Of a stretch of 38,349 nucleotides of DNA, positions 9,307 to 27,161 are shown one piece after another (position 1 is the first letter of the stretch; the number at the start of each line of letters is the position of its first letter). The position numbers and the translations under genes were made by a program. Below the pieces are notes generated by a model. That model made no database searches. It saw nothing but the letters and a program-made list of their open reading frames with translations, and had not been told where the DNA came from. Source of the DNA: Nitrospira sp. (GTDB lineage Bacteria; Nitrospirota; Nitrospiria; Nitrospirales; Nitrospiraceae); contig JABMDK010000017.1 in the NCBI GenBank assembly GCA_015903995.1, positions 189,786-228,134 of the forward strand, written 5' to 3'.

Positions 9307-10155
9307 TCAAGAAGGGATATGTTGGGGATCTGCTCGGTCTCTAAAAAAACGAAACAGCAGGTAGCCGTTTACGAAGACCACGATCGACAGGATACTGTAG
9401 GTGGTTATGGGTGTCGCAAGATTGAGTTCTACGAGTACCCGCGACAGGCCGAACCCGACGATGAGCCCGTCGAATGCCATGCAAATACGTCGGAACGTTT
9501 CAGGATCCATCAAGCGGATCAGATATGTCCCAAGTGGAATCCCGATCATGACGCTGGGCACGATATAGGGAATGATTTCCATGCTGCCGGCACTGTAGAA
9601 ACCGATAAACCCGTAGGCGATGGCCGTGAGTGAAGACTCTGTCAGGCGAATAATCCCTAATGCCGCACGGAAGTCTTGTTTCGGATAGCCTTGATTGTTA
9701 AAGAGGAGCGCCAAGGGAGGACCGGAAATCGTGGTGAGGGAGTAGAGGGTGCCAAGCCCGACTCCAAACGGTAGGCCGATCGCTTTTTCAGCACGAATGG
9801 GTTTTCGAATGCCCGCAGCCTGGAGAAGAATCAAGGGCAAGAGAAAGACATACGTCACAAACTTGATCCATGCCGGCTGCACCAAAAAGAGAAGATAGCT
9901 GCCGATGCCGACTCCGATCGCCAGACCGACGAGAATAGGTGCGACACGCCAGAAGATGTTCGGAATGCTCTTTCGGTTGATGAAAAGCACATAGGCATTG
10001 ATGACGAGCTCGACGAGGACGAGCGCAGGGTTCAGGATCTTGTTGGTGTAAAAGAGTAGAGCAACCGGTACGGTGATGGAGGAAAACCCATATCCCAGTG
10101 CGCCATTGACCGTGGCGGCGAAAAACGTAATCAGCACAAGAACGATGGTATCCAT
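9307..10155 (-). CDS. TauE/SafE-family anion (sulfite/organosulfonate) exporter-like membrane protein
   Basis: A 282-residue, very hydrophobic protein with about eight membrane-spanning segments. It has the two-fold repeat typical of the TauE/SafE family: the N-terminal FFAATVNGALGYGFSSITVP and, in the second half, GTLYSLTTISGPPLALLF. Family members move sulfite, sulfoacetate or related anions across the inner membrane; the true substrate here is not shown. It lies six bases downstream of an Rrf2-type regulator gene on the same strand, so the pair is almost certainly co-transcribed. The ribosome site overlaps the end of the regulator gene and is weak (GAGG about 12 bases upstream), consistent with coupling. 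Confidence 0.88.
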   Translation of the reverse strand: MDTIVLVLITFFAATVNGALGYGFSSITVPVALLFYTNKILNPALVLVELVINAYVLFINRKSIPNIFWRVAPILVGLAIGVGIGSYLLFLVQPAWIKFVTYVFLLPLILLQAAGIRKPIRAEKAIGLPFGVGLGTLYSLTTISGPPLALLFNNQGYPKQDFRAALGIIRLTESSLTAIAYGFIGFYSAGSMEIIPYIVPSVMIGIPLGTYLIRLMDPETFRRICMAFDGLIVGFGLSRVLVELNLATPITTYSILSIVVFVNGYLLFRFFRDRADPQHIPS

Positions 10156-24350: not shown

Positions 24351-25427
24351 ATGTGTTCTTCCCCTAATCAGTCTGCGTTTCAACCTGGAGCTCAATGGCG
24401 TCCTGGCCCGATTCTGGGAATCGAATCGTCATGTGATGAAACGGCTGCCGCCGTTCTTAGTGGTGAAGGAGCGGTGCTGTCCAACATTGTGTCTTCACAG
24501 GTGGCCGTCCATGAAAAGTTCGGTGGCGTCGTTCCGGAATTAGCCGCACGCGCGCATCTTGGGATGATCGACATGGTCGTCGAAGAAGCGTTGGCGACCG
24601 CCCAATTCTCAAAACATGCGCTCGGTGCCGTGGCCGTCACCCAGGGACCTGGATTAGCTGGAGCGCTGTTAGTGGGAGTGAATTATGCCAAAGCCTTGAG
24701 TTACGGCTTGGGGATTCCGATCATCGGGGTCAATCATCTGCAAGGTCACATCGCCTCCGCATGGCTCGCCGATCCGACATTCCCGTTGTCCTGCATTGTG
24801 CTGGTCGTATCGGGTGGCCACACTCATCTTTATCACCATGATATCGGTGGTCGATGTATTCTCATGGGACGCACTCGCGACGATGCCGCCGGTGAGGCGT
24901 TCGACAAGGGGGCCCAGATGCTTGATTTAGGGTATCCGGGCGGGCCAGCCGTTGATCGAATCGCACGTTTCGGTGACGCAGAGGCTATTCGATTTCCTCG
25001 ATTCCACCGGGCAAAGAGCAGTCTCGAGTTCAGCTTTAGTGGGCTCAAGACGGCGTTGCTGTATAAGTTACGAGAAATGGGTGGTTCTCTGCGACCTCAT
25101 CAGACGGCCGACTTGGCGGCCAGCTACCAAGAGGCTATCGTGCAAGTCCTGGTCACGAAGGCGTTTGCAGCCCTCAAACAGTCCAACCTGGCTGCGCTGG
25201 CAGTCGTAGGAGGGGTTTCAGCGAATTCACGGTTGAGGGCCTTATTGAGCGAGCGTGCGACACGTGAAGGGATACGCCTCTCGTTGCCGCCTCTTGAGTA
25301 TTGCACCGATAATGCGGCCATGATTGCTTCGGCGGGGCGTCAGTCGCTGATGAATGGAGGGCAACTACATGCCGATCTCGATATCAGCCCGGCTGAGAGA
25401 TTCGTGACGATTCATGAGGAAAACTGA
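24351..25427 (+). CDS. tsaD: tRNA t6A37 threonylcarbamoyltransferase TsaD
   Basis: A protein of about 358 residues, the catalytic subunit that attaches the threonylcarbamoyl group to A37 of ANN-decoding tRNAs. Motifs are ILGIESSCDETAAAV, the metal-binding NHLQGH (His129 and His133), LVVSGGHTHL, GEAFDKGAQMLDLGYPGGP and a late CTDNAAMIA. The frame is open upstream to a TTG at 24315, but that codon lies in the T-tract of the clpC terminator, so I place the start at the ATG at 24351. No clear Shine-Dalgarno is present there. hflX follows in the same frame, 39 bases after the stop. Confidence 0.94.
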   Translation: MCSSPNQSAFQPGAQWRPGPILGIESSCDETAAAVLSGEGAVLSNIVSSQVAVHEKFGGVVPELAARAHLGMIDMVVEEALATAQFSKHALGAVAVTQGPGLAGALLVGVNYAKALSYGLGIPIIGVNHLQGHIASAWLADPTFPLSCIVLVVSGGHTHLYHHDIGGRCILMGRTRDDAAGEAFDKGAQMLDLGYPGGPAVDRIARFGDAEAIRFPRFHRAKSSLEFSFSGLKTALLYKLREMGGSLRPHQTADLAASYQEAIVQVLVTKAFAALKQSNLAALAVVGGVSANSRLRALLSERATREGIRLSLPPLEYCTDNAAMIASAGRQSLMNGGQLHADLDISPAERFVTIHEEN

Positions 25428-25438
25428 TCACCTATCAG

Positions 25439-25460
25439 TTATCTCTACGAGATAAGGAGA
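25439..25460 (+). promoter_or_regulatory. Hairpin abutting the hflX ribosome-binding site
   Basis: TTATCTC (25439-25445) and GAGATAA (25449-25455) form a perfect 7-bp stem with a 3-base loop. Its right arm overlaps the first bases of the AAGGAGA Shine-Dalgarno (25454-25460) of hflX, so folding could limit ribosome access. Confidence 0.6.
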
Positions 25461-25466
25461 ACGCCC

Positions 25467-27161
25467 ATTTCTGATATCCGAGGTCAGATCACAGGACTAC
25501 GCACCAGCCAAGTTGCGTCGGTTGAACGACTGTACCGACGTCGTGTCTCACCCGACAAGGTCCTGACTCCGGAGCTCGCAAAGGCCATGGCCCAGCTGAC
25601 CATTGAGCTTCGTCGCCCGATTGGGGTGCTGTTGACCAGGCGTGGACAGGTTCAGGACGTGATTGTGGGAACGGAATTGACGTTGTCTTCCGCAACGCTG
25701 ACTCTGTTCCGCACAGGTGCGCGATCGCTCCGTGGTTTGAGGTTCATTCGTACGCAATTGCACGATCAGCCCATCAATCAAGAGGTGTTGACAGATCTCG
25801 CCTTCTTGCGACTTGATCTGATCGGCCTGCTCTCCGTCACGGAGGATGGTCAACTAGGCAATCTGTATCTCGCTCATCTGCTGGCACCCAATTCAACCGG
25901 TCAATTGTTCAAAGTGCTCAAGGCTGTCCCGTTCCACAATCTCACCATACTGTTCGACCAATTCATCGAAGAGCTTGAGGCAGACCTTCAGCAGGCGCGA
26001 GCTCACTATGCGATTGAGAACGGTAAGGAATCGGCGATACTGGTCAGCGCCTCTGTCAAAAGTCGGTCCGAGCAGGAAGAGCGGTTAGCCGAATTGGCGG
26101 AATTGGCGGCCTCCGCCGACGTCACGGTGGTCGACCGTGTCGTACAACGAACGCCGGACGGACATCAGCGCTATCTCTTGGGCCGCGGCAAGATGAAGGA
26201 TGTCCTGATTCAGACTCTCCATCGTGGCGCCGATATGGTGATCTTTGATCAAACGTTGTCACCGGCTCAACTCCGAGCCATTTCAGAGATGACCGATATC
26301 AAGGTGATCGACCGGACGCAACTGATCCTGGATATCTTTGCCCGCCGAGCGCACAGTCGTGAAGGCAAAGTACAGGTAGAACTCGCGCAGTTACGGTACC
26401 TGCTTCCACGCTTGTCCGGAAAGGGTGCCCAACTCTCGCGCCTGGGTGGAGGGATCGGCACTCGTGGGCCGGGTGAAACCAAATTGGAAACCGATCGTCG
26501 CCGTGTGCGTGACCGGATCACGCACTTAGAACGGGAGCTGGCCCAATTTGGGCGTCAGCAAGACCAACGTCGGTCCAGGCGAGATCGGCACGGACTTCCC
26601 GTCGTGTCTCTCGTGGGCTACACGAACGCCGGTAAGTCGACGTTGCTCAACGTGCTGACGAACAGTCAGGTATCAGCTCAAAACAGATTGTTCGAAACTC
26701 TGGACACGACGAGCCGACGTCTGAGGTTCCCGGAGGATCGCGAAGTCATCATTACCGATACGGTCGGATTTATCCGGGATCTTCCGCAAGAACTGGTCGG
26801 CGCTTTTCGGACAACGCTCGAAGAACTCCGAGAGGCTGATCTTCTACTGCACGTGGTCGATGGCAGCGCCGCAGACATCGACATTCAGATTACCGCCGTC
26901 GTCGCCATTCTTGAGGACTTGCATTTGAGCGCGATCCCAAGATTACTGGTGATGAATAAGTGCGACCAGGTGTCCCCATCGAGTGTCGAGTTGCTGTGTC
27001 GGCGGTACGGGGCTATTGGCATTTCGGCGCTCCAGCCTGAGACGCTTCGTCCGCTCTTCTCTCACCTGGAAGCACACGTGAGATCTCTGCTGATCGGTGA
27101 ACGTCAGACAGTTGGCCTGCCGCTGCAGGATGATGCGCTGGTGCTTGCATCTCGTCGGTAA
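25467..27161 (+). CDS. hflX: Ribosome-associated GTPase HflX, probable ATT start
   Basis: A long-type HflX of about 564 residues; HflX splits stalled ribosomes under stress. From the N-terminus: an extra ~170-residue domain beginning ISDIRGQITGLRTSQVASVE, the HflX nucleotide-binding N-domain, the glycine-rich linker GGIGTRGPGETKLETDRRRV, then the G domain with GYTNAGKST (about 384-392), DTVGFI and NKCD. No ATG, GTG or TTG occurs in frame between the tsaD stop and 25587. The conserved first 40 residues lie before that ATG. AAGGAG ends seven bases before an ATT at 25467, which I take as the start. Starting at 25587 would remove the conserved ERLYRRRVSPDKVLTPELA block and leave no ribosome site. 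Confidence 0.88.
   Translation: MSDIRGQITGLRTSQVASVERLYRRRVSPDKVLTPELAKAMAQLTIELRRPIGVLLTRRGQVQDVIVGTELTLSSATLTLFRTGARSLRGLRFIRTQLHDQPINQEVLTDLAFLRLDLIGLLSVTEDGQLGNLYLAHLLAPNSTGQLFKVLKAVPFHNLTILFDQFIEELEADLQQARAHYAIENGKESAILVSASVKSRSEQEERLAELAELAASADVTVVDRVVQRTPDGHQRYLLGRGKMKDVLIQTLHRGADMVIFDQTLSPAQLRAISEMTDIKVIDRTQLILDIFARRAHSREGKVQVELAQLRYLLPRLSGKGAQLSRLGGGIGTRGPGETKLETDRRRVRDRITHLERELAQFGRQQDQRRSRRDRHGLPVVSLVGYTNAGKSTLLNVLTNSQVSAQNRLFETLDTTSRRLRFPEDREVIITDTVGFIRDLPQELVGAFRTTLEELREADLLLHVVDGSAADIDIQITAVVAILEDLHLSAIPRLLVMNKCDQVSPSSVELLCRRYGAIGISALQPETLRPLFSHLEAHVRSLLIGERQTVGLPLQDDALVLASRR

Follow-up and report, generated by a model that had tools for sequence, protein, structure and literature searches.

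The hflX gene of a Nitrospira genome probably starts at an AUU codon whose weak class is conserved across relatives and may be restrained by initiation factor IF3

The hflX locus and its predicted start

In the window (the whole stretch of DNA analyzed, 38,349 nucleotides), hflX lies behind tsaD on the forward strand. The locus comprises the following features:

24351..25427, + strand: tsaD, the upstream gene, with its TGA stop (25425-25427) in the hflX frame
25439..25455, + strand: perfect 7-bp hairpin (TTATCTC-TAC-GAGATAA), probably incidental
25454..25459, + strand: Shine-Dalgarno (SD) sequence AAGGAG, 7 nt ahead of the ATT at 25467
25467..25469, + strand: predicted hflX start codon ATT; codon class and protein edge kept across relatives
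25467..25586, + strand: N-terminal 40 codons, conserved as protein in relatives and lost if the start is placed at 25587
25467..27161, + strand: hflX, 564 codons plus TAA, matching the HflX models TIGR03156, PF13167, PF16360 and PF01926
25587..25589, + strand: ATG, first canonical in-frame codon (codon +40 from the ATT), probably an internal Met

Read from the ATT, the encoded protein is HflX. It scored 442.6 bits against the curated equivalog model TIGR03156, for which the cut-off is 216.75, and it also matched PF13167, PF16360 and PF01926; with the narrower model NF008280 (ribosome rescue GTPase HflX) the score of 317.9 was below the cut-off of 441. The protein carries an N-terminal extension of approximately 185 residues, solved HflX structures matching only from about residue 188. 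Its closest named relatives come from Nitrospira metagenome-assembled genomes (MAGs), with identities of up to 96%, and N. moscoviensis was also among the matches. The same genome encodes a second, short-type HflX (L031; G000:C57:112130-112999), which has ATG codons near its N-terminus.

An earlier note on this DNA had proposed the ATT as the start of hflX, and its description of the sequence was correct: the tsaD stop shares the hflX frame, no ATG, GTG or TTG occurs from that stop until the ATG at 25587, and AAGGAG precedes the ATT with a spacing of 7 nt. The 13 codons between the TGA and the ATT are devoid of canonical codons (ATG, GTG or TTG), and the window thus has no canonical start between the in-frame stop and the conserved N-terminus. 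Only the ATT at 25467 is predicted to fit the start of that N-terminus in the window.

The note had also anticipated that automated annotation would truncate the protein by 40 residues. We compared the annotated starts in the best 120 of 7995 database matches and found them at 29 positions, with 14 records starting at the equivalent of 25587, 5 at the ATT and the rest at 27 others; one NCBI record (P0001) already reads the ATT as Met. The truncation therefore occurs in 14 of these 120 records, but hflX N-termini are misannotated in both directions. Scattered database starts set against a sharp conservation edge offer a route to further genes of this kind.

Conservation of a predicted weak start codon

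We read the hflX start codon in 33 families, using the 202 distinct loci left after 230 fetched loci had been deduplicated by sequence. The set contains no outgroups, infC loci or HflX paralogs, and families f6, f10, f13, f16, f21, f24, f26, f37, f41 and f43 were outside the hflX reading. The loci are non-independent samples from a phylum that is apparently Nitrospirota, as judged from named relatives. Starts were called by alignment position, with preference for position 0 (the ATT in the window) and then +1, and SD sequences were counted afterwards.

The codon read as the start was ATT in 124 loci, ATC in 42 (41 at position 0 and one a codon later), ATA in 13 and ACG in 17 (all one codon later), so that a weak start was present in 196 of the 202 loci. 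Five loci were canonical (ATG in L034 and L040, TTG in L046, and TTG two codons later in L134 and L253), and one (L257) was unassigned. At least one non-canonical locus was found in 32 of the 33 families, and 28 families were solely non-canonical.

Searches at E values of 0.001 or better gave some match in 58 of 59 genomes of the order, 145 of 146 of the class and 245 of 245 of the phylum; these figures count matches rather than hflX genes, the best match in some genomes (e.g., G028, G061, G075, G082 and G176) being weak and probably another GTPase. Every locus read in the genus had ATT or ATC. Among the matches listed, 80 further loci were read in the class and 40 loci, representing 21 further families, in the phylum. 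Named contigs contributed 68 loci, and the 53 Nitrospira-group loci with a readable start each had ATT or ATC. An isolated assembly error was ruled out as the origin of the codon, since Nitrospira moscoviensis (L196), an isolate, has the same codon class, as do many MAGs.

The earlier note had pointed out that the 40 codons before 25587 resemble the N-terminus of long-type HflX, and alignment with relatives bore this out: the frame is conserved as protein from the ATT onward, and the codon class and the SD are conserved with it. In the window's family, position 0 encodes Ile in all 104 loci; nearby residues vary (Ile in 79, Val in 21 and Leu in 4 at +3), and codons upstream of the start vary freely save for an Arg-Arg pair forced by the SD. 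Upstream of the SD, protein-level conservation was gone (codons -14 to +15 were read, and later codons were judged by eye).

Canonical codons are scarce around this edge. None occurs between the in-frame stop and a conserved Gly at +5 in 136 of the 202 loci, nor up to that Gly in 83 of the 89 loci with a stop at most 10 codons upstream, and the stretch from -10 to +5 is free of them in 180 of the 202 loci. Counted from position 0 onward, the site of the first canonical codon differs between loci, with 36 positions represented. Three loci (L012, L056 and L169) have a TGA two codons ahead of the ATT. On the other side, 16 of the 196 non-canonical loci contain an ATG, GTG or TTG between -10 and +5 that could act as an alternative start, and in the five canonical loci such a codon lies no more than two codons from the expected start.

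An SD match of at least 4 nt was found in 197 of the 202 loci, with a gap of 5 to 10 nt in 189 of these 197, and a match of at least 5 nt in 153 of the 202; at the weak end, 44 loci matched over just 4 nt and 5 had no match. Families f11, f12, f14 and f15 appear to use ACG at the start in 17 of 17 hflX loci, compared with 25 of 101 downstream Thr codons, and by a hand calculation that ignores shared ancestry 17 of 17 would arise by chance with a probability of about 5e-11. To our knowledge, ACG starts have hardly been documented in bacteria. The ACG loci are L137, L140, L142, L144, L147 and L149-L160; L140 has no SD match, and in L137 and L160 a GTG or ATG lies at most three codons ahead of the ACG.

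The edge of conservation, the absence of canonical codons, the ACG bias and the scatter of the first canonical codons together argue that position 0 is the start rather than an internal residue. For the window, the conserved codon class, the SD and the protein boundary across the phylum strongly support the ATT at 25467 as the predicted hflX start.

We then considered the codon itself. A tree of the 202 proteins, built with the start excluded, required at least 25 changes of codon state, 13 for ATT/ATC alone, and five changes between canonical and non-canonical states, a number equal to that of the canonical loci. The hflX codon thus drifts within the weak set and seldom changes to AUG, GUG or UUG. 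In the control gene tsaD, a canonical start was present between the stop and the first motif in 53 of 53 testable loci. We also took 400 kb of the genome, containing 309 likely genes, and searched it for frames that combine an SD of at least 5 nt with a near-cognate codon 15 or more codons upstream of the first canonical one. Three frames were retrieved, one of which was hflX. The second had a negative coding score. The third, starting at an ATA at window position 10090, had a coding score of 1.7 versus 0.7 for hflX; it lies antisense to an Rrf2 gene and gave no Pfam match. The 400-kb sample contained no second convincing weak-start gene, and this genome therefore does not seem to use weak starts freely. 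Starts other than ATG, GTG or TTG are commonly regarded as sporadic exceptions; hflX, by contrast, retains such a codon across an entire phylum, and the fact that it seldom turns strong suggests that its weakness is selected.

Proposed restraint by IF3 and alternative explanations

We consider it likely, with a probability of about 0.68, that hflX starts at the AUU at 25467 and that the weak codon is kept by selection so that IF3 limits HflX synthesis. In E. coli, HflX splits 70S ribosomes under stress, and IF3 is an anti-association factor for the 30S subunit (PMC9067457). By the proposed mechanism, IF3 would eject fMet-tRNA from codons of the AUU, AUC, AUA and ACG type, and HflX would be kept low until ribosomes need splitting. 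A shortage of IF3 relative to free 30S subunits would allow synthesis of both factors; HflX would then split idle or stalled 70S ribosomes, and IF3 would hold the 30S halves apart. If true, the two factors would form a simple homeostatic loop that is directly testable. Judging from sequence comparison, restraint by IF3 appears to be the likeliest and best-fitting mechanism for the hflX codon.

The gene for IF3 itself, infC, probably has a weak start in most of these bacteria. In the genome of the window (L061; G000:C124:123895-124392), its likely start is an ATC behind AAGAGGTGG, just before the conserved block. ATC, ATT or ATA behind an SD was found in 62 of 75 distinct infC loci from 14 families, and in 12 of these families, which indicates that IF3 autocontrol probably operates in most of these bacteria. 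The loci outside the 62 comprise 11 with ATG in family f3, one unassigned in f26 and one ambiguous in f20 (TTG under the weak-SD rule). In f3, reading placed the ATG at -4 in all 11 loci, five of which the weak-SD rule had labelled ACG. These f3 ATG codons have no recognizable SD (L062, L070, L071, L073, L076, L083, L090, L327, L328, L334 and L335).

A broader possibility, to which we give somewhat less than an even chance, is that hflX and infC form an ancient two-gene IF3 regulon, phylum-wide and perhaps beyond. The start codon would then be a conserved regulatory element tying HflX synthesis to the balance between IF3 and free 30S subunits, drifting among AUU, AUC, AUA and ACG and all but barred from AUG.

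The main rival to restraint by IF3 is a fixed low dosage. The weak start would be real, yet it would set constitutively low HflX synthesis, as described for pcnB of E. coli, with IF3 providing no signal; an unregulated, constitutively low yield would be reflected in the sequences in the same way. We regard this explanation as unlikely, at roughly one chance in four. Against it, AUU, AUC, AUA and ACG are all near-cognate codons that IF3 reportedly discriminates in E. coli. A poorer SD could also lower dosage, yet the SD matches over at least 5 nt in three-quarters of the loci (153/202). In favor of fixed dosage, family f3 retains ATT at hflX in 17 of 19 loci although its infC has ATG in 11 of 11, so that the hflX codon is not simply tied to that of infC and the two genes need not be co-controlled. 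In poor medium, non-canonical starts of Staphylococcus aureus yielded approximately 10% of what AUG gave, and the AUU of cvfC1 showed no medium effect (PMC13009471); pcnB, too, is described as translationally limited by its AUU.

Less probable still is coupled re-initiation, in which unrecycled ribosomes leaving tsaD would restart at the AUU, so that hflX would report failing recycling and HflX would provide an alternative splitting route. In families f1 to f4, tsaD lies directly upstream of hflX in 132 of 134 loci, including 104 of 104 in the window's family. Its stop was located in 161 loci, and in 153 of these tsaD overlaps the hflX start or ends no more than 56 nt from it. In the other 29 families, a tsaD query from the Nitrospira C-terminus, which could miss diverged copies, detected no upstream tsaD in any of 68 loci. 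As judged by eye, promoter-like sequences often occur close by in these 68 loci. The codon class is nevertheless the same there and is thus independent of the tsaD neighbor, which argues that the codon itself is selected and that coupling cannot be the general reason for it. Coupling may be an addition within the window's order, where the SD usually lies within the last part of tsaD or shortly after it and ribosomes finishing tsaD would probably supply initiating subunits.

The tsaD end itself varies. It falls at +8, inside ATTCCTGA-like sequence, in 35 loci (L095 being doubtful). In L006, L008 and L022, tsaD extends across the hflX SD to a stop inside ATTCCTGA, which makes tsaD and hflX overlap at the hflX start. 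The window's tsaD has a shortened C-terminus, with the TGA at 25425-25427 where several near relatives have an Arg codon and continue for about 8 or more residues. Read-through of the tsaD stop was ruled out as a source of the hflX N-terminus, since the tsaD stops of relatives lie in differing frames relative to hflX (-11, -14, -25, +8, etc.).

The earlier note had also suggested the hairpin at 25439-25455 as a second control. The perfect 7-bp hairpin is present in the window, its last two bases being the first two of AAGGAG, and in 19 near relatives 88.5% of cells pair, compared with 55 to 76% for slid versions. Masking of the SD by this hairpin, as a thermosensor or second switch, is nonetheless very improbable: no measure rose above shuffles in the 19 near relatives, letters are missing at one of the seven pairs in 17 of the 19 rows, and the overlap with the SD is just 2 nt. 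Covariation lay within shuffles, and folding around the hflX start (-40 to +25) gave a mean z of +0.09 over the 202 loci against shuffles that keep base composition only, with no conserved or covarying helix over the SD of the kind expected of an RNA thermometer. A second hairpin, over the tsaD stop (AACTGAT/ATCAGTT, or AACCGAT/ATCGGTT in relatives), was rejected because its apparent covariation by eye was within shuffles, and it falls in the tsaD coding sequence of relatives.

Least probable of all is translation from a downstream canonical codon, here the ATG at 25587, with the conserved block left untranslated: that codon is canonical and is the annotated start in the 14 records mentioned above, but the frame is conserved as protein from codon 0, the first canonical codon is scattered over 36 positions between loci, and the SD points to position 0.

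Other weak-start genes and hflX outside the phylum

Restraint by IF3 would place hflX in a small set of genes with conserved start codons of the IF3-responsive type. Literature on non-canonical starts with IF3 or infC pointed to infC, pcnB, lepA, sigR, cvfC1 and ccpN. Among the open-licence papers listed for HflX combined with start codons or IF3, no title or abstract opening described a non-canonical hflX start.

One close parallel is infC, which starts at AUU, AUC or AUA and in E. coli is autoregulated by IF3; like hflX, it has a near-cognate codon behind an SD, conserved across species. It differs in that infC encodes IF3 itself, whereas the target in hflX is HflX and the dependence on IF3 is proposed. 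IF3 represses Streptomyces sigR at its GTC start, and infC is autoregulated through ATT/ATC (PMC5472188). Like hflX, sigR belongs to the stress response and has a non-canonical start, which is wrongly annotated in the streptomycete genomes available. Its GTC is a feature of one bacterial group and its dependence on IF3 is shown, whereas hflX uses ATT, ATC, ATA or ACG over 32 of 33 families. The S. aureus genes cvfC1 (AUU) and ccpN (AUA) also combine a conserved non-canonical start with a strong SD; they are other genes, and HflX does not appear in the main text of PMC13009471. Another ribosome-associated GTPase likewise needs an AUU for its full length, in two species and by inference from genomes. 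In pcnB of E. coli, the AUU limits yield as the hflX codon might, but it acts as a dosage limit and the product is not a ribosome factor. The weak start of hflX is conserved to an unusual depth.

Twelve outgroup hflX loci with the N-terminus were also read. Canonical codons lie at or near the expected start in six of them (L222, L223, L224, L228, L231 and L232), an in-frame ATG or GTG touches the SD in L225, L227 and L229, and L233, L234 and L238 have no nearby canonical codon. As a lead only, the weak hflX start may reach beyond the phylum. In L225, L227, L229, L233, L234 and L238, which come from Syntrophobacteraceae, Hydrogenedentota, a proteobacterial MAG and Desulfohalobiaceae, hflX may start at ATC, ATT, CTG or ATA.
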